IMG/VR virus record: IMGVR_UViG_3300047552_000197
Location: 1 to 49,100 of that record
Length of the DNA stretch: 49,100 nt
Direction: 5' to 3' (one strand)
DNA from: a virus
The notes under the pieces are model-generated. The model was not told the DNA's origin, did no database searches, and saw only the letters and a list, made by a program, of their open reading frames with translations. Each line of letters begins with the position of its first letter. Position 1 is the first letter of the stretch. This document shows positions 2,996-17,420 of this stretch, one piece after another. Both the position numbers and the translations under genes were made by a program.

Positions 2996-5197
2996 GTGAG
3001 TCTACAATTATTCAAGGCACTACTTACCAAGGACTTTTATACTAGGGTACACGACTCATTACCAAACGATGATGTATTCCCTAGTGAAGTACGAGGTATG
3101 TACCGCACACTAAAGTATATGCACGAGGAATACCCTGGGGACTTTACAGCTCAGAGTGTACTTGATACCCACCTATCCTTACATCCTACCACTACTCCAT
3201 CCACTAGATTAATCTTAGAGGGAGTGGTAAGTAGAGTTAATGAGGAGGAGGAGTACAACCCTACCTTAGCAGGGGATATCCTAATCCGTACTAAAGCTAG
3301 TAATATTATACGAGATACCTTAGAGAGTCTATTACAAGTAGAGCAAGGTAACCTACCTATTGATACTGTATTAGACCAACTAAAAGAATATCAAGATACT
3401 ATTGCTCACCTAAGTACCTCTACTACAGAGCAGAAGGAAGAGTATCTAGAGAAGGTAGTAACCTTGGATAGTTTAGAGGAACTATTAGAGGAAGGATACA
3501 CTACCCATAAGTGGAAGTTTAACCACCCTTTACTACAGAGTGCTACTAATGGATTACCTGAGTCTTGTTCTGGCATCATAGGGGCAAGGCCCGATTGCTA
3601 CTCTGAGGATACAGAAGTATTAACCGCTACTGGATGGAAATTATTTAGTACCCTTACCCCCAAAGATTTGGTAGCACAGGTACATCAGAACAAACTAATT
3701 ACCTTTGTACAGCCCACTGATTATATAGCCTACCCGTATCAAGGGGATATGGTGCATTTTACCCATTCGATGGGTAAGGTAGACCTGTTGGTAACACCTA
3801 ACCATGATATGATTACGTGGTCAAAGTCTAAAGGTATGTGTAAATCTAAGGCTGAGTCTTTTACTCCTACTACTCTAGAGTATATGCTTAAAGCTGGGGT
3901 AAAAGAGAGCGGGTTCTCTACTCTTGCCCCCTATGAGAGATTCCTAATAGCGTATCAAGCAGATGGGTCTGGCCCTCGTAAAGGATGCACTGGGGAGCGG
4001 GGACATCACACAGTACGGTTTAGCTTTAGTAAGCAGAGAAAGGTTGATAGATTACTACGGATACTAGAGGAAGCTAGACTTACTTACAAGGTAGTCACCG
4101 AAGAATCCAAACCTAACTTCACTACCATATACGTACAAGTCTCTGAGCTACCATCTAAGACATTTGATTGGGTACATCTACAAGGTGTATCTGGTCTATG
4201 GGGTAAGGAGTTTATCGAGGAACTATCCTATTGGGATGCTACTCGTAGATCTGACACACGCATTAAGTATGATAGCACCATTAAACTTAATACAGATGTG
4301 GTATCTGCTATCTGTGCTATTAGTGGGTATCATACCAATCAATCTGTAATGCATGATAAGCGAGGTTTCAAAGATGTACATACTATCTCTATCTTGACTG
4401 ACAGGGATAGGTTCCTAGCTTCACCAGTCCAGAAGACTGTTGTAAGCTACGATGGTATGGTGTATTGTGTGACTGTACCTACAGGTAACATCATCGTCCG
4501 TCGTAACGGTAAGGTAGTAGTATGTGGTAATTGTGGAAAGACTGCCTTCTACCTATCTCTTATGTGTAATGATGGAGGTTTCCTAGAACAAGGAGCTAAC
4601 GTAGCAGTGTGGAGGAATGAGGAACGCTATGATATGGTAGCACGTAGAGCTATCTCTGCCTTTATGGGAGTACCATTCGACGAAGCACTATTGAATATAG
4701 ACTCCTTTAAAGCTAAACGACAGGTAGTTACTGGTAATATGTATATCCTTAAAGATAGTATTACAGGGGATGCTGATATCAAGGATGTGGATGAGTACCT
4801 TAAGAACTACCCTGAGATTGACATCCTTATCATCGACCAATTAGATAACTTGACATATGAGGGTAAACCTGCTATGGATGATATCGTTATCCTTGGTCAC
4901 CTATACAGGGAAGCTAGGGCTATCTCTATCCGTAGGAATGTAGCTATCATTAATATCACCCAAGCTGGGGCGGAGGCAGATGGTAAACTATACTACGGAT
5001 TAAATGGATTATATGGTAGTAAGACTAATAAGCAAGCTCACACTGATTTCATCTTTGGTATTGGTGCTATGAACCCACAAGGGGGACAACAGGATGATGG
5101 GGTAAGGGCTATCAACTTCTTAAAGAATAAACTTAAAGGTCCTCATAGACCTATTATGTATAGATTAAACCATCAACTAAGTAGAATCGAGGACTAA
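2996..5197 (+). CDS. DnaB-like replicative helicase precursor with an in-frame intein in the P-loop, 733 aa
   Basis: Start is GTG 2996, with AGGAGAG just upstream; an ATG at 2972 has no such site. The host protein is a RecA-fold DnaB-type helicase: helical N-terminal domain (about residues 1-170), Walker A GARPD|CGKT split by the intein, Walker B DILIIDQLDN, then an NITQAG segment. Residues 201-512 are the intein, so the spliced helicase would be 421 residues with Walker A restored as GARPDCGKTAF. It would unwind DNA ahead of the phage polymerase encoded two genes downstream. No primase domain is fused to it. ATPase function depends on splicing because the break lies between PD and the Cys preceding GKT. 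Confidence 0.9.
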   Translation: MSLQLFKALLTKDFYTRVHDSLPNDDVFPSEVRGMYRTLKYMHEEYPGDFTAQSVLDTHLSLHPTTTPSTRLILEGVVSRVNEEEEYNPTLAGDILIRTKASNIIRDTLESLLQVEQGNLPIDTVLDQLKEYQDTIAHLSTSTTEQKEEYLEKVVTLDSLEELLEEGYTTHKWKFNHPLLQSATNGLPESCSGIIGARPDCYSEDTEVLTATGWKLFSTLTPKDLVAQVHQNKLITFVQPTDYIAYPYQGDMVHFTHSMGKVDLLVTPNHDMITWSKSKGMCKSKAESFTPTTLEYMLKAGVKESGFSTLAPYERFLIAYQADGSGPRKGCTGERGHHTVRFSFSKQRKVDRLLRILEEARLTYKVVTEESKPNFTTIYVQVSELPSKTFDWVHLQGVSGLWGKEFIEELSYWDATRRSDTRIKYDSTIKLNTDVVSAICAISGYHTNQSVMHDKRGFKDVHTISILTDRDRFLASPVQKTVVSYDGMVYCVTVPTGNIIVRRNGKVVVCGNCGKTAFYLSLMCNDGGFLEQGANVAVWRNEERYDMVARRAISAFMGVPFDEALLNIDSFKAKRQVVTGNMYILKDSITGDADIKDVDEYLKNYPEIDILIIDQLDNLTYEGKPAMDDIVILGHLYREARAISIRRNVAIINITQAGAEADGKLYYGLNGLYGSKTNKQAHTDFIFGIGAMNPQGGQQDDGVRAINFLKNKLKGPHRPIMYRLNHQLSRIED
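3596..4531 (+). mobile_element. Intein with LAGLIDADG (DOD) homing endonuclease domain, 312 aa
   Basis: The intein starts at Cys201 (CYSEDTEVLTATGWK, block A) and ends VVVCGN before Cys513 as the +1 nucleophile. Block B is visible as LVTPNHDM. Two DOD-type endonuclease motifs are readable: LIAYQADGSG, and a second, EELSYWDATRR, in which the usual Gly is Ala. Both Asp residues remain, so cleavage activity may persist. Block F is VYCVTVPTGNIIV. The residue before the terminal Asn is Gly rather than the usual His, a known but less common variant. Codon use matches the host gene, suggesting long residence. Confidence 0.93.
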
Positions 5198-5198
5198 C

Positions 5199-5621
5199 AT
5201 GAGTAAAGAGTTAAGTAGTGATAATGTCGTACCCGTTATCTGCACTAATACATCTATGTCTATCCAATATGTAAATGTGGATACAGGTGATGTAGTACGG
5301 GAAGACCATATTGTATCAGAGATTCATTCCTATGGTAGCACAGTTAATCAAGCCTTAGGTTCAACGGCTGTAATCCTAAGTGAGATTCTAGGAGAAGATA
5401 GAGATGGTGAGGATACATACTTTGAGGATGAGGATGATGATACCTTATCACTTGAGTTTGATGAATTAGAATCTGAAGAGATGTTAGATAGTGATTATGA
5501 CTTCGGGGATACAGAAGAGATAGACGAAGATAGATACATGTCTTCTGCTATCGATCGGTATGGCGAGACTCGGAGTGGTGAAGTATTAGACCTAGTACAA
5601 TTTATGAAGAGAGCACGTTAA
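5199..5621 (+). CDS. Acidic hypothetical protein, 140 aa
   Basis: ATG 5199 starts one base after the helicase stop, with GAGG upstream. The product is strongly acidic from residue 65 onward (EDRDGEDTYFEDEDDDTL) and ends in a basic helix (VLDLVQFMKRAR). No known motif. Between helicase and polymerase it could be a replisome accessory or DNA mimic, but that is position-based inference only. Confidence 0.75.
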   Translation: MSKELSSDNVVPVICTNTSMSIQYVNVDTGDVVREDHIVSEIHSYGSTVNQALGSTAVILSEILGEDRDGEDTYFEDEDDDTLSLEFDELESEEMLDSDYDFGDTEEIDEDRYMSSAIDRYGETRSGEVLDLVQFMKRAR

Positions 5622-5633
5622 TAAGAGGAGACT

Positions 5634-7760
5634 ATGGAGACAGTACTTGACCTAGAGAATACAGTTACATTCATTCCAGTTAAAGAGAAGGAGATTCTAA
5701 AGGTAGGTAATCCATATCACCCTAATAATAAATTAGTAGCTGTAGGGTATACTTATGTTAAGATGGGGCATACTCCTACTTCTTATACCTTTCATCATAA
5801 TCAAGCAGATCCTACACCTGATGGGTTCTCTCATATCCAAGATGTATTAAATAATACTACCTTACTTATTGGGCATAACCTTAAACATGACTTAGCTTGG
5901 CTACGAGAGTGTGGGTTTACCTACAATGGTAAGTGTTGGGATACTATGCTAGCTGCCTACATATTCTCCTGTGGTAGGAAGGAAGGTACTAGCCTAGAAG
6001 AGTGTGTCAAGAAAGCTGGTATCAATGGCCACAAAGGGGAGTTAATGTCTAACTACCTTGATGAAGGTATCAACGTAGATGACATGCCCTATAAAGAGTT
6101 GATAGAGTATTTAGATAATGATGTAGATATTACTATGCAGTTGTACTTACATCAACGTAAGTTCTTAGAGAATAGTGGTACTAATAAACCACACTTTGAG
6201 AAGGCACTGAACCTAGTCAACTCCTTTCTCCCTTATCTTGTAGACATGGAGAGGGCTGGTATTTATGTTGACCAATCTAAACTACAAGTAATTAAAGCAG
6301 AGTACGAAGTAGAACTTAATCAAGTCCATAATGACATTACTCAAATGGTACGAGAGTTAATGGGGGATAGACCTTACAACCTAAACTCCCCTGATGACTT
6401 GTGTGCTATTGTGTATAGTCGTAGGCCCAGAGATAAACGCCAATGGGCGATAGACTTTAATATAGGTTCAGAACTTCGTAATGGTGTATCTAAACCTAAG
6501 CGTCTAACAGTGTACAAGAAGGAAGCCTTCTTACAAAAGCTTCGTACTAGTACTATTATAGAACGTAAGACTAAGGCTAATCAATGTTCTACTTGTAAGG
6601 GTAAGGGTACTATCTATAAGCTTACTAAAGCTGGTAAGCCTTATAAGAAGATGCCTATGTGTAAGACCTGTGAGGGTACTGGCATAGAGTATCTTAAACT
6701 TAATGAGATAGCTGGGCTAGCCCTACCCCCTCAGAATAAGTATGCCTCCTCTGCTGGGTTTGCTTGTAACGCTGATGTGGTAGAAGAACTATTAGAATTA
6801 CGGATACCTGATAAGGCTAGAAAGTTTCTTGGCTTAGTGAGTAGACGTAATAAGTTGGAGGTGTGGGTTAATACCTTCTGCTTCCAACTACAGAAGTATA
6901 GTATCAATGGGATAATCCACCCTTCTTTTAACCAACACATTACTGCTACAGGTAGATTAAGTTGTACTGCCCCTAATATGCAGAACCAACCTAAAAGAGA
7001 TAAAACCTTTAAGCTTCGTAAAGCATTCATTAGTAGGTGGAAAGGTGGTAGATTATATGAGGCAGACTTTGGACAGTTAGAGTTTCGTATTGCTGCCTTA
7101 CTTGCTAACTGCCAAGCTGCTATTGACTTCATTACTGCTGGTAATGATATCCATTGTGTTACAAGGGACTTCTATTATGGAGACTTAGAGATCAAACCTA
7201 AGCATCCGTGGCCTAAGGGGAACCCTAAGGAAGATAGACAGACAGCTAAGGCTGAGACCTTCGGCCCTCTTTATGGTAAGGATACTGAATGGACTGAGAT
7301 GTTCTATCATAAGTTCCCAGGTATAGCTGCTTGGCATGATAGACTAATGGCTGAGGCTGCCACTACTAAACAAACGATATCTCCTAGTGGTAGGATATAC
7401 TCTTTCCCGTATGCAGAGAGGTATGTTAATTATAAGGGTAAGCTCATGACCAGTGGGCAAACCCAGATTAAGAACTACTCGGTACAAGGATTTGCTACAG
7501 GGGATTTAGTATTACTTGTACTCATGGATATCATGCAGTACCTACAGGAGCATAATGCTAAGTCTAAGTTATGTATTCAGGTACATGATAGTGCCTTAGT
7601 AGATGCTCATCCCGATGAGTTTGAATTAGTAGAGCAAGCATTTAACTTTGCTTTTGGTAACATCTATAAGAAAGCTAAAGAGTTCTTTGGTATTGATATC
7701 AACGTACCACTGGCTTTTGATTTAGAATACGGAGTAAATTGGTATGGCGACAAAGAGTAA
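5634..7760 (+). CDS. Family A DNA polymerase with 3'-5' exonuclease and a zinc-binding insertion, 708 aa
   Basis: ATG 5634 follows AGAGGAG. The N-terminal exonuclease shows Exo I (VLDLENT), Exo II (IGHNLKHDLAWL) and Exo III (YLDNDVD). The polymerase domain shows TATGRLSC, motif A YEADFGQLEFR (Asp478), the O-helix R535...K539AETF543GPLYG, and motif C VHDSAL (His651, Asp652). Phe at 543 is the position that is Tyr in T7 polymerase and Phe in E. coli Pol I. Length matches T7 gp5. Unusually, residues 318-346 hold two CxxCxGxG-type knuckles (CSTCKGKG and CKTCEGTG), a DnaJ-like zinc motif inserted before the palm. It replicates the phage genome with the neighbouring helicase. Confidence 0.95.
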   Translation: METVLDLENTVTFIPVKEKEILKVGNPYHPNNKLVAVGYTYVKMGHTPTSYTFHHNQADPTPDGFSHIQDVLNNTTLLIGHNLKHDLAWLRECGFTYNGKCWDTMLAAYIFSCGRKEGTSLEECVKKAGINGHKGELMSNYLDEGINVDDMPYKELIEYLDNDVDITMQLYLHQRKFLENSGTNKPHFEKALNLVNSFLPYLVDMERAGIYVDQSKLQVIKAEYEVELNQVHNDITQMVRELMGDRPYNLNSPDDLCAIVYSRRPRDKRQWAIDFNIGSELRNGVSKPKRLTVYKKEAFLQKLRTSTIIERKTKANQCSTCKGKGTIYKLTKAGKPYKKMPMCKTCEGTGIEYLKLNEIAGLALPPQNKYASSAGFACNADVVEELLELRIPDKARKFLGLVSRRNKLEVWVNTFCFQLQKYSINGIIHPSFNQHITATGRLSCTAPNMQNQPKRDKTFKLRKAFISRWKGGRLYEADFGQLEFRIAALLANCQAAIDFITAGNDIHCVTRDFYYGDLEIKPKHPWPKGNPKEDRQTAKAETFGPLYGKDTEWTEMFYHKFPGIAAWHDRLMAEAATTKQTISPSGRIYSFPYAERYVNYKGKLMTSGQTQIKNYSVQGFATGDLVLLVLMDIMQYLQEHNAKSKLCIQVHDSALVDAHPDEFELVEQAFNFAFGNIYKKAKEFFGIDINVPLAFDLEYGVNWYGDKE

Positions 7761-10513: not shown

Positions 10514-12289
10514 ATGGTAGAGATAGATTACACAAGAGATGAACGATTAACAGAAGTATCCATCCTTACCCTTAAGGATAGGTATATGGTGGAGGGAGAG
10601 ACTTCTCCTCAAGATTGTTTCATGCGAGCATCTAAAGCCTTTGCATCTAATGATGCCCATGCTCAACGGATGTATGATTACATCAGTAAGGGGTGGTTAA
10701 TGTACTCTACTCCTATCCTAAGTAACGGGGGTACTAAACGAGGTCAACCTATTGCCTGTTTCGGGGGGTATGTAGACGACAGTAGAACTGGAATTACTGA
10801 CCACTATACGGAGAATGCTTGGTTATCCTCTATGGGGGGTGGTATTGGTGGGTATTGGGGACACATACGTAGTAATGGAGAGAAGACTTCTAATGGGTCT
10901 AGCTCTTCTGGTATTATCCCCTTTATTAAGGTAGTGGATTCTATGGTGCTGGCCTTCAGTCAAGGTGGTACACGAAGAGGTAGCTATGCTGCCTACCTAG
11001 ATATCTCTCACCCTGAGATATTAGAGTTCCTTACCATCCGTAAGCCTACTGGTGGTGACTCTAATCGTAAGTCCCTTAACCTACACAATGCTGTTATCAT
11101 CTCTGATGAGTTCATGCGTAAGGTAGTAGGAGAAGACCCTAACGTAATGTTCAACCTTATCGACCCACATACTAAAAATGTAGTAGGTGAGATTAATGCT
11201 AAGGAAACTTGGGAACAGATTCTTACCTTACGAGTAGAGACAGGAGAACCTTACATTATGTTTGGGGATACTGTTAACGACCTTCGCCCTAAAGAACTAA
11301 GAGACTTAGGGCTACGTATTAATCAGAGTAATCTTTGCTCCGAGATAACCCTACCTACCAATAAGGATAGAACCTTTGTATGTTGTTTATCCTCCCTCAA
11401 TCTTGAGAAGTTCCCTGAGTGGAAAGACTCTAGTATTGTTGAGGATTTGGTAGAGTTCTTAGATAACGTACTTACCTTCTTTATTAGTACTTCTCCTGAG
11501 AGTATGGCTAAAGCTAAGAATGGAGCTGAGTTAGGTCGAGATATTGGTATTGGTACCTTAGGGTGGCATAGCTATCTACAACGTATGAGTATTCCATTTG
11601 AGAGTGTTACTGCTTTGTCTCACCTTAATATGATTCATAAGCATATTATGTCTTGTGCTATGAGAGCTAGCCAGAACCTAGGTAAGGTACGAGGATTTGC
11701 TCCTGATACCCTACAAGGTAGTAACCCTAGACGTAACACCCACCTTATTGCCATTGCTCCTAATGCAAGTAGTGGCCTTATCTGTGGTACTAGCCCTAGT
11801 GTAGAACCCCTTACTGCTAACATCTTTACTCAGAAGACATTAAGTGGTAGCTTTGAGATTCGTAATCCATACCTACAGAAACTACTTAGCTCATATGGTA
11901 AGGATACTGAGGAGACTTGGAAATCTATACGAGACAATGGGGGAAGTGTTCAACATCTTAAGTTTATATCTCCTGAGGAGAAAGAAGTATTTAAGACAGC
12001 TAGTGAAATCAACCAACGATGGGTGATAGAGCAAGCTTCACACAGACAGAAGTACATTGACCAAGCTCAGAGTATTAACTTGTTCTTCTCCCCTGTAGAT
12101 GGTACTATAGATGCCCTATACTTACATCAAGTACACACAGATGCTTGGAAGAAGGGACTTAAAACATTATACTACCTACGTTCTAAAGCTATCCGTAAAG
12201 CAGATAACATTGGAGCTAGTGTAGAACGACAAGTAATCAACACAGAGCATCCAGCGACAGCAGGAGACTGTGTAAGTTGTGAAGGTTGA
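10514..12289 (+). CDS. nrdA: Class I ribonucleotide reductase large subunit, 591 aa, no ATP-cone
   Basis: Catalytic residues are present: N273, C275 and E277 in NQSNLCSEI; the redox pair C82 (PIACFGG) and a Cys in VCCLSS (290 or 291); Tyr553 and Tyr554 in LKTLYYLRS; and a C-terminal swinging-arm pair, C586 and C589 (CVSC). At 591 residues it is much shorter than E. coli NrdA because it begins directly at the catalytic fold and lacks the N-terminal ATP-cone, so the classic dATP off-switch is absent. It reduces NDPs to dNDPs with NrdB, encoded 415 nt downstream. Thioredoxin at 17673 could regenerate the tail cysteines. Confidence 0.96.
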   Translation: MVEIDYTRDERLTEVSILTLKDRYMVEGETSPQDCFMRASKAFASNDAHAQRMYDYISKGWLMYSTPILSNGGTKRGQPIACFGGYVDDSRTGITDHYTENAWLSSMGGGIGGYWGHIRSNGEKTSNGSSSSGIIPFIKVVDSMVLAFSQGGTRRGSYAAYLDISHPEILEFLTIRKPTGGDSNRKSLNLHNAVIISDEFMRKVVGEDPNVMFNLIDPHTKNVVGEINAKETWEQILTLRVETGEPYIMFGDTVNDLRPKELRDLGLRINQSNLCSEITLPTNKDRTFVCCLSSLNLEKFPEWKDSSIVEDLVEFLDNVLTFFISTSPESMAKAKNGAELGRDIGIGTLGWHSYLQRMSIPFESVTALSHLNMIHKHIMSCAMRASQNLGKVRGFAPDTLQGSNPRRNTHLIAIAPNASSGLICGTSPSVEPLTANIFTQKTLSGSFEIRNPYLQKLLSSYGKDTEETWKSIRDNGGSVQHLKFISPEEKEVFKTASEINQRWVIEQASHRQKYIDQAQSINLFFSPVDGTIDALYLHQVHTDAWKKGLKTLYYLRSKAIRKADNIGASVERQVINTEHPATAGDCVSCEG

Positions 12290-12501: not shown

Positions 12502-12708
12502 ATGAAAGTAGAAGTAACAGAAGAATTGTATGGTCGTATGGTGAAGGCATTGGTATTAGCCTTTGCCTACCATTCATTACCCACAGCAACATATACCCTG
12601 CTATCCAACCAAGAGCCTGATGAGCTTCTTGAACTTATCGAGGGTAACGAAGACTGGCCTATGTTGAAACGTATCTTGGATGCTATTATAGAGGAATTAC
12701 AGAAATGA
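12502..12708 (+). CDS. Hypothetical protein, 68 aa
   Basis: It lies between the two ribonucleotide reductase genes and its stop overlaps the NrdB start (ATGA). The product begins MKVEVTEELYGRMVKALVLA, is helical and acidic, and ends RILDAIIEELQK. No motif recognised. Whether it affects the reductase is unknown. Confidence 0.7.
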   Translation: MKVEVTEELYGRMVKALVLAFAYHSLPTATYTLLSNQEPDELLELIEGNEDWPMLKRILDAIIEELQK

Positions 12709-13739
12709 GTCTATTAGGACGACGAACATATTATAAACCCTTTAGTTACCCTTGGGCCTATGAAGGATATAAACTGCAGCAGCAGATGCATTGGCTACCA
12801 GAAGAAGTACCTCTCCGTGAGGATGTACGAGATTGGAATCAGAACCTATCTAATGAGGAGAAACACCTACTAACTAACATCTTCCGCTTCTTTACTCAAG
12901 GGGATGTGGATGTCGCTAAAGGATACCTACATAAATACATTCCTATGTTTGGGCATAACCCAGAAGTAGCTATGATGTTAAGTGCCTTTGCTAATATGGA
13001 AGCTATCCATCAGGATGCATACTCTCTATTGTTAGATACTGTAGGTATTCCTGAGCTAGAGTACCAAGCCTTCTCTAAGTATAAAGAGTTAGCAGATAAG
13101 CATAACTACGTTGAAGAAATAACCGAACTACAATATACTCAAGAGTATGTAGAAGATAATAGTAGAGTCATTCTCTATGGTGCATCCCAAGGGGATAAGC
13201 TACGGGCTACTGCTAAGTCCTTGGCCGTGTACTCTGCCTTTACAGAAGGATTACAACTCTTCTCCTCTTTTGCTATTCTTCTTAACTTCCAACGATTCAA
13301 TAAGATGAAAGGGATGGGACAGATCGTTACCTTTAGTGTGAAAGATGAAAGTTTGCATGTCGAGTACATGATTAAACTATTCCGTACCTTTATCGAGGAG
13401 AATCCTGAAGTATGGACTGATGACTTTAAGAAGGAACTCTATGATATCTGCCGTACTATGGTAGAGTTAGAAGATAACTTTATTGACTTTGCCTTTGAGA
13501 TGGGGGGTATAGAAGGACTTACTAAAGAAGAAGTAAAGAAGTACATCCGCTATATTGCAGATAGACGACTATTACAATTAGGATTAAAACCTAACTATAA
13601 AGTAAAAACCAATCCATTACCTTGGTTGGAAGCATTATTAGGTAACACCGAACATGCTAACTTCTTTGAGACACGGAGTACAGAATACTCTAAAGCTCTT
13701 ATTCAAGGGTGGGATAAAGTATGGGAGAGTAACTTATGA
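12705..13739 (+). CDS. nrdB: Class I ribonucleotide reductase small (radical) subunit, 344 aa
   Basis: The ferritin-like diiron site is readable: Asp67 in FTQGD, E99 and H102 in MEAIHQDAY, the Glu of FTEGLQLF, and E/H of KDESLHVEY. Tyr106 sits at the radical tyrosine position. Length is typical of the family. It forms the active NrdA2B2 complex with the product of 10514-12289. It overlaps both neighbours by 4 nt (ATGA), showing tight coupling. Confidence 0.96.
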   Translation: MSLLGRRTYYKPFSYPWAYEGYKLQQQMHWLPEEVPLREDVRDWNQNLSNEEKHLLTNIFRFFTQGDVDVAKGYLHKYIPMFGHNPEVAMMLSAFANMEAIHQDAYSLLLDTVGIPELEYQAFSKYKELADKHNYVEEITELQYTQEYVEDNSRVILYGASQGDKLRATAKSLAVYSAFTEGLQLFSSFAILLNFQRFNKMKGMGQIVTFSVKDESLHVEYMIKLFRTFIEENPEVWTDDFKKELYDICRTMVELEDNFIDFAFEMGGIEGLTKEEVKKYIRYIADRRLLQLGLKPNYKVKTNPLPWLEALLGNTEHANFFETRSTEYSKALIQGWDKVWESNL

Positions 13740-16003: not shown

Positions 16004-16465
16004 ATGACAGAAGGAAGTATTATAGCAGGAGTAGGAGTCAGTGCTACTGATGTGATTGGGAATATGTTGAATGAAGCATCACGAGATATTCAACGTAGTA
16101 ATGCTGATAAGGGATTCTATGATGACTACCAAGCATTAGTAAATTTTATTAGTTCAGAGATAGAGAAGGGGGAGTTGGCACAACCTATAGGTAAACGATA
16201 CCTTGATATCCTAAAGGAAATGTTTATTTCTAGTAAGATTGCCCTTATCCATAGTGAACTAAGTGAAGCATTAGAAGCAGTACGAGCTGGTATTGAGAAC
16301 GATGATAAGATTCCTGAGTACAGTGGGTATGAAGCTGAGATGGCAGATACCTTCATTAGAGTAGCAGATCTAGCTGGATTCTCTCGTATTAATTTAGGAG
16401 GTGCCTTTCAAGCTAAGTTAGCTAAGAATAAAACTCGGGAGTATAAACATGGGAAACGCTTCTAA
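16004..16465 (+). CDS. MazG-like nucleotide pyrophosphohydrolase, 153 aa
   Basis: AAAGGAG precedes ATG 16004. The helical core shows KIALIHSELSEALEAVR (the ExxE metal-binding helix), then EAEMADTFIRVADLAG (the second ExxxD helix), and a basic tail, REYKHGKRF. That is the all-alpha NTP pyrophosphohydrolase layout, cleaving (d)NTPs to (d)NMP and PPi. It overlaps ThyX by 17 nt, so a role in supplying or cleaning dNTP pools near dTMP synthesis is likely. Confidence 0.82.
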   Translation: MTEGSIIAGVGVSATDVIGNMLNEASRDIQRSNADKGFYDDYQALVNFISSEIEKGELAQPIGKRYLDILKEMFISSKIALIHSELSEALEAVRAGIENDDKIPEYSGYEAEMADTFIRVADLAGFSRINLGGAFQAKLAKNKTREYKHGKRF

Positions 16466-17420
16466 GATGAACTCAATGCACCTACATAATATTAGTAAGA
16501 TACCTAACACCATTTGTGATTCCCTAGTAGTAGCTGCTGCTAGGGTATCCTTCCAACAGGATGCTAAACAGTTTGATCCAGAGAGAGATGCTAAACTAAT
16601 TAACTATCTTGTATCTCACGACCATTGGAGTCCATTAGCCCACCCTCATGGTGCTTTTATAATGGGCACTCCTCTTGATGAAAAGCTTCTTAAGAGCCTC
16701 ATAGAGGAGCCTATTGCAGGGCTCAGGTGGGGTAGTAGCCCGATACATGATTACAAGGCTGTAGACTATGTTTCTGGGTCATTATGGGGCCTTCTACGAT
16801 TGGGTAATAGGCTGGGTAGTACCTCTTTAATTGATTTACTTGGAACACTAGCTCCTTTAAGTGTTAAAGCGTTCCTAGATACACATCGTGCTATCTACCC
16901 CACACATGGAGTTAAACGTAATTGGGTACAGGTAATTCCTAGGGAGGAAGATAAGGTAACTACCCTACGAATAGAAGCTCCTCTTGCTATCGCCAGACAG
17001 TTATGGAAGCATCAACAAGGACTAGAGTTCTCAGAACAGCTACCTTGGAATGAAGCTAGTGGTAGATACATTGATATGTCTAAGAATGGGTACTTTATTC
17101 CTCCATCTTTCCATGCTCAAGCAGAGAATAAGAAGCAAGGGGTAGAGCCTGAGATGTTAGTACAAGAACATCCCATGAATGATTTAACCTTCGAGGAGAT
17201 AGTTAAGCTAGTAGATGAATGGTATAAGAACAATTCACACATTGGTAACGAAGAACGTAGACTACTACTACCTGCTTGTACTATGACCTCTTGGTATTGG
17301 ACAGCACGAGAACGAGACTGGAACCGAGTATTAAAGCTACGATTAGACCCTCATGCTCAGCTTCTAACTCAAGACGTAGCTAAAGAGATTGAACGTATAT
17401 TAGAAAGTGAGTATGAATGA
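16449..17420 (+). CDS. thyX: Flavin-dependent thymidylate synthase, 323 aa, atypical signature
   Basis: ATG 16449 follows GGGAG. Family features are AAARVSF (residues 29-35), SHDHWSPLAHPHGAF and a ThyX-type signature reading KHQ (187-189)...N201-E-A-S204-G-R206-Y. In the usual RHRxxSxNExSxR motif His and Asn are six residues apart; here they are 13 apart, implying a 7-residue insertion, and the outer Arg residues are replaced by Lys and Gln. ThyX converts dUMP to dTMP using FAD, NADPH and methylene-tetrahydrofolate. Confidence 0.9.
   Translation: MGNASKMNSMHLHNISKIPNTICDSLVVAAARVSFQQDAKQFDPERDAKLINYLVSHDHWSPLAHPHGAFIMGTPLDEKLLKSLIEEPIAGLRWGSSPIHDYKAVDYVSGSLWGLLRLGNRLGSTSLIDLLGTLAPLSVKAFLDTHRAIYPTHGVKRNWVQVIPREEDKVTTLRIEAPLAIARQLWKHQQGLEFSEQLPWNEASGRYIDMSKNGYFIPPSFHAQAENKKQGVEPEMLVQEHPMNDLTFEEIVKLVDEWYKNNSHIGNEERRLLLPACTMTSWYWTARERDWNRVLKLRLDPHAQLLTQDVAKEIERILESEYE

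Follow-up and report, generated by a model that had tools for sequence, protein, structure and literature searches.

The stretch of DNA analysed here, referred to below as the window, comprises the whole of an IMG/VR virus record (49,100 bases), in which no terminal repeats were found as a sign of completeness. A helicase frame is open in it from TTG 2972 or GTG 2996 to a stop ending at 5197; GTG 2996, with AGGAG directly upstream, appears the more likely start, and TTG 2972 is an alternative in the same frame. The frame encodes a precursor of 733 aa, and 421 aa remain when the exteins are joined without the insert that splits the Walker A motif (Table 1). The joined exteins were aligned to the helicases of HMO-2011, CRP-235, HTVC033P and others over 97–100% of the length, without a gap at the junction, and this full-length homology, together with the adjoining polA-type polymerase gene, marks the product as a DnaB-like replicative helicase of the HMO-2011 type. 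Nearby genes for RNR, a Cas4-like exonuclease, phosphoesterases, thymidylate synthase, terminase and portal are also of the HMO-2011 phage type. The contig yielded no further helicase-like Walker A motif apart from that of terminase, and no DNA-level relatives among phages were found for the first 25 kb of the window. Immediately 3' of the helicase gene (5199-5621) a strongly acidic protein of 140 aa is encoded, to which no family was assigned, and at 5634-7757 a family A DNA polymerase into which a DnaJ-type CXXCXGXG zinc finger is inserted, a feature common to HMO-2011-type phages.

Table 1. Features of the split helicase gene, in positions of the window
Feature	Position	Strand	Remarks
N-extein, N-terminal half of DnaB-like helicase	2996..3595	+	GTG start, AGGAG ribosome site
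GARPD, first half of Walker A (GARPD↓CGKT)	3581..3595	+	Uninterrupted homologues have ARPETGKT etc.
Intein, 312 aa, Cys1...Gly311-Asn312, with LAGLIDADG (DOD) homing endonuclease domain	3596..4531	+	Homologues, model, tree
Block A, CYSEDTEVLTATG	3596..3634	+	Cys1 invariant, 40/40 aligned relatives
Block B, TPNH (T67xxH70)	3794..3805	+	B:12 is Met, not Trp
First DOD motif, RFLIAYQADG	3938..3967	+	Catalytic Asp123; alignment to relatives
Second DOD motif, FIEELSYWDA	4211..4240	+	Catalytic Asp214; WDG 26, WDS 8, WDA 6 of 40 relatives
Block F, YDGMVYCVTVPTGNII	4448..4495	+	Cys291 at F:4 (38/40); F:13 His absent
Block G, GKVVVCGN	4508..4531	+	Cys310 (G:5), penultimate Gly311, terminal Asn312
C-extein, +1 Cys, CGKT and remaining RecA-like ATPase domain	4532..5197	+	AAA_25, phrog_19 DnaB-like replicative helicase
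CGKT, second half of split Walker A	4532-4543	+	Helicase frame

The insert in the Walker A motif

The original prediction had called an intein between GARPD and CGKT; the coordinates of this 312-aa insert, which starts with Cys and ends with Gly-Asn, proved base-exact, and its removal leaves the expected helicase of 421 aa. The proposed comparison with uninterrupted homologues at the same site was carried out by scanning IMG/VR with the helicase alignment, which gave at least 587 relatives, and in all 80 kept for the P-loop comparison Walker A is continuous and insert-free, in agreement with the predicted placement. Their P-loops read ARPETGKT (40), ARPESGKT (12), ARPEVGKT (7) and ARPNTGKT (7), with a few others. 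The insert is in frame and missing from the homologues, the joined host protein is intact, and the blocks A, B, F and G, a terminal Asn and a +1 residue of the Cys/Ser/Thr set, all expected of an intein, are present.

When the insert alone was used as the query, it was matched over its full length (residues 1–312) at up to 41%, with the ends at Cys1 and Asn312, and the full-length relatives are borne by unrelated exteins: NAMPT, the RNR large subunit, NrdB, DNA polymerase, primase and other phage proteins. An IMG/VR scan with the precursor as a single protein gave no matches, and a search of bacterial genomes, limited to patterns, confirmed no relatives. The contrary case named in the original prediction, an ordinary helicase insertion domain, may appeal to the silence of Pfam on the window sequence taken alone, which stays under the Pfam and NCBIfam cut-offs and found no match in a single-sequence PDB search either; other family members do match the Intein_splicing and LAGLIDADG_3 domains. 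Such a domain would break Walker A, inserts of this family with the same ends are also found in NAMPT, RNR, NrdB and primase, and the predicted fold is that of Hint plus LAGLIDADG. The insert-free homologues and the relatives in unrelated exteins rule this case out, and its probability is practically nil.

The AlphaFold model of the intein, based on 28 sequences, has a pLDDT of 94.8 and a pTM of 0.92, and both a Hint fold and a LAGLIDADG fold are predicted in it. In the Foldseek search against PDB, endonuclease-bearing inteins (TliVMA, PI-PfuI, PI-SceI) lead, followed by AceL NrdHF, I-DmoI and hedgehog, the matches with I-DmoI, PI-PfuI and PI-SceI being those for the LAGLIDADG fold; the top matches in BFVD include phage RNRs that bear inteins. 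The whole precursor, folded from a single sequence, reached a pLDDT of 35 and gave no usable model. We put at about 0.93 the probability that the insert is a full-length intein, probably with an active LAGLIDADG endonuclease, in the Walker A motif of a phage replicative helicase. P-loop inteins had been described as a known class, for which there are indeed precedents in phage and bacterial ATPases, and the window intein adds another example; taken alone it is another mobile intein in a replication protein, placed in its ATP-binding loop, and its importance is increased by the family context.

Splicing blocks and endonuclease

The legibility of the four splicing blocks and two DOD motifs, noted from the sequence, was confirmed by alignment to relatives, and the family traits were counted in 40 aligned relatives of the window intein. 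Like Cys1, the residues His70 (B:10), Gly311 and Asn312 are invariant in them; F:4 is Ser in the two relatives without Cys, 39 have Ser, Cys or Thr at G:5 and 27 have Met at B:12 (Met72 in the window intein), and a His near F:13 is almost absent. The penultimate Gly and the WDAT of the second DOD motif had been regarded as oddities: both are present, but neither is peculiar, because Gly is found in 40 of the 40 relatives and WD[G/S/A] is normal for the family. Residues other than a penultimate His are tolerated in inteins (PMC4031507). The mycobacteriophage RDF intein with a penultimate Gly splices completely, and more slowly when changed to G316H (PMC5050341), while AceL NrdHF, which also has a penultimate Gly and lacks the F:13 His, needs only minutes to splice and loses activity on G145H (PMC7891396). 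Because these two inteins splice with Gly, the penultimate Gly is compatible with splicing.

Each of the two DOD motifs carries its catalytic acidic residue, Asp123 and Asp214, as a LAGLIDADG endonuclease should. The only other helicase found with a homologous intein, at the identical site, is encoded in a 57-kb record (L107/L189, IMGVR_UViG_3300025769_000138), and a comparison of the two inteins gives identities of 67% in the endonuclease part and of 49% and 55% in the two splicing halves, with codons identical at only about 50% of the unchanged residues. The earlier view of an endonuclease that may still be active agrees with the retention of both Asp residues and with the endonuclease being the best-conserved part; we read the 67% identity at about 50% codon identity as a probable sign of long-maintained selection on the endonuclease. 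That the intein has decayed, with splicing lost and the helicase gene dead or with the endonuclease dead, is very improbable. Inteins can decay, as Arth_1007 did (PMC3196547), and both DOD acids have been lost in one relative (L131), but here the frame is open across all three parts, the catalytic residues are retained, and the strongest conservation, after what the codons suggest was a long divergence under selection, lies in the endonuclease part.

Landing site and probable movement between genes

The second helicase intein, which reads AARPD↓C...AGN↓CGKT (the arrows mark the ends of inteins), resembles the window intein in site, family and DOD motifs including WDAT, and is known from a metagenome contig alone. 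The two inteins are 59.5% identical, whereas the exteins are just 36.6% identical, and in the helicase tree the two carriers are sisters (SH-aLRT 99) on long branches. From this difference we infer transfer between lineages, later than the divergence of the exteins, though slower evolution of the intein could look alike. Among the 80 empty relatives, D at position −1 is found in 1 and Cys at +1 in none, and two exact-match patterns, which may omit records near the window, detected no uninterrupted ARPD[C/S]GKT in IMG/VR; either the intein brought the flanks it prefers along, or entry is restricted to rare RPD-C/S alleles. In the flank downstream of the site, 19 of 21 bases are common to the window and the L107 record, versus at most 16 of 21 in the 80 empty relatives. 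A co-conversion tract was considered but is not supported, because another extein stretch scores equally and the codon identity near the site equals the background of 50%.

Searched by tblastn against 213 phage records, the window intein gave its best match in the NAMPT of Staphylococcus phage vB_Sau_Clo6, where the intein is placed after RPD and before SGDP. Pattern and profile scans gave more NAMPT inteins after RPD (L099, L106, L109, L190 and L193), and near copies are present among the NAMPT records (L111 of L099, L110 of L109). The NAMPT inteins of Clo6 and the IMG/VR contigs match the window intein at 41–43% and share with it the flanks RPD↓[C/S]G, but they lie in an unrelated host protein, which is annotated in its record as NAMPT only, and have Ser, not Cys, at +1. 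Two unrelated enzymes are therefore entered at RPD↓[C/S]G, the helicase in its phosphate-binding loop and NAMPT in its RPDSGDP motif, which we take to have a catalytic role.

A tree built from 39 inteins places the two helicase inteins and six NAMPT-RPD inteins on one side of a branch with a support of 77/90, which is not decisive, and the two groups are possibly sister clades; in the AU test, placing the helicase pair with the RNR inteins (p 0.33) or with those of the other NAMPT site (p 0.11) was not rejected. What the AU test did reject (p 0.011) was a shared origin with the other phage P-loop inteins, those of KIL5 primase/helicase and L148. Because related inteins occupy the matching short motif of NAMPT (RPD↓SGDP), we infer with moderate support that spread between non-homologous genes via a look-alike target is the likeliest route into the helicase site. 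Since the helicase and the unrelated NAMPT share a landing context, such gene jumping could be probed with a single endonuclease on both sites.

Several further insertions were observed. Inteins of the wider family are located in P-loops before [ST]GK[ST] in L148 (3001-3927) and L014 (2001-2951), as a separate lineage by the same AU test. One viral NAMPT, on the − strand of L106, contains two family inteins, at 106-1047 and 1249-2205, in the sites PA↓SEHS and RPD↓SGDP. An RNA polymerase beta-like protein in L103 and L105 (also L102 and L104) combines a mini-intein (RSPE↓C..GN↓S) with a second intein-like insert, which is longer and lies farther along. The RNR large and small subunit genes and the thymidylate synthase gene of the window (10514-12289, 12705-13739, 16449-17420) are without inteins; the RNR, NrdB and thymidylate synthase genes of other phages do carry relatives of the window intein.

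Proposed splicing chemistry and dependence on splicing

By its sequence the window intein is class 1 (Cys1, TxxH, Asn312, Cys+1): an N-terminal nucleophile is combined with T67-x-x-H70, and the penultimate His, usual in class 1 (about 95%) and not strictly defining, is replaced by Gly311. Class 3 inteins lack a nucleophile at position 1, which is present here as Cys1, and their WCT triplet (Trp B:12, Cys F:4, Thr G:5) corresponds to Met72, Cys291 and Cys310, so that Cys at F:4 is its sole element found. When the family profile was compared with PDB, the sole convincing match was AceL NrdHF (E 2.7e-12; the next was 0.1), and the NrdB-site members match it directly (CB7 5e-6, L131 2e-5). This split intein (PDB 6zgq) shares Met B:12, Cys F:4, penultimate Gly and the absence of F:13 His with the window intein, but differs from it in Ala1, the split, the lack of an internal endonuclease, the NrdB host and a proven class 3 mechanism; it has been classed as 'unusual' among class 3 inteins and has an MCT triplet (PMC7891396). 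In a tree built from 108 columns of the N-terminal splicing region, with the WCT inteins left out and a long AceL branch, AceL groups with CB7 NrdB (99/93) and then with L131 and L116 (90/86). The latter two are at a DE↓[ST]xH site, like CB7 NrdB, and the AceL flanks are D-E↓S-M-H. Cys1 inteins at NrdB-type E↓[ST]xH sites in L131 (3001-3915), L116 (3001-3951) and L016 (1501-2466) are the nearest relatives of AceL NrdHF over this N-terminal region.

These relationships bear on the possibility that splicing begins at Cys291 of block F by the class 3 route, or at either Cys1 or Cys291. The frequencies of Cys at F:4 (38/40) and of Ser, Cys or Thr at G:5 (39/40) are in its favour, as are the proven class 3 mechanism of the best PDB match and the nesting of AceL beside CB7 NrdB and the other NrdB-site members. 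Cys1 is nevertheless invariant, the class 1-typical TxxH is retained, and two relatives have Ser at F:4. The residue at F:4 is most often Asp and then Cys, and because class 1 inteins with Cys there are known (PMC4031507, PMC3196547), the conserved Cys is not new as such. We regard initiation at Cys291 as unlikely, and class 1 splicing from Cys1 as the more probable route for the window intein.

The nesting of AceL among NrdB-site members suggests a transition from class 1 to class 3 inside one family. We tentatively propose, at somewhat less than even odds, a phage family with two candidate first-step nucleophiles, Cys1 and the block-F Cys, and a Gly-Asn end, in which class 3 would have arisen by loss of Cys1, of which the window intein would represent the pre-transition state, and whose lineage would target look-alike catalytic motifs; an intein in such a state may splice without Cys1. 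The origin of class 3 is disputed between divergence from class 1 and a separate protease origin, the latter argued in PMC7664689. If the AceL placement holds, class 3 chemistry would have originated here in relatives with Cys1, independently of the WCT inteins, and since the active site of the window intein resembles that of AceL NrdHF save for Cys1, single mutants could probe this origin.

In the action we propose, the 733-aa precursor would be made first, the Hint fold would activate the Asp-Cys1 bond, the N-extein would be handed to Cys+1 of CGKT, and Asn312 would cyclise with neither usual His assisting, upon which the exteins would ligate as GARPD-CGKT into the 421-aa, ATPase-competent helicase. 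The released 312-aa protein would then cleave alleles that lack the intein and carry a matching site, and the gene would be copied in during co-infection. One point against this action is that Arg at B:11, which aids Asn cyclisation in AceL NrdHF, is Asp71 in the window intein.

It is sound to expect from the split Walker A that the helicase would have no ATPase before splicing and that replication would wait for splicing. Published work on P-loop inteins (RadA) is in line with a loss of ATPase, and also notes that some activities may be retained by precursors (PMC6195587). Replication might, however, not have to wait, as the phage could use a host helicase until splicing has taken place. The intein could also be a regulatory switch that delays helicase maturation through conditional splicing, as mycobacterial DnaB inteins are inhibited by oxidants and zinc (PMC6195587, PMC7360933) and additional cysteines are present in the active site here; the sequence gives no sign of conditionality, however, and the sporadic occurrence, with 2 carriers found against 80 kept free relatives, looks like that of a selfish element. 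We consider a switch improbable.

Of the inteins described previously, those of mycobacteriophages (TerL, RDF, primase; Kelley et al. 2016) resemble the window intein as phage class 1 inteins with active-site and P-loop insertions, and the RDF intein also in its penultimate Gly, but they are distant in sequence (26% for the Bones primase intein). DnaBi1 of M. smegmatis, at the DnaB-b site, similarly lies within the P-loop of a replicative helicase, but is a class 3 mini-intein with the WCT triplet and without an endonuclease, and joins at the P-loop Ser.
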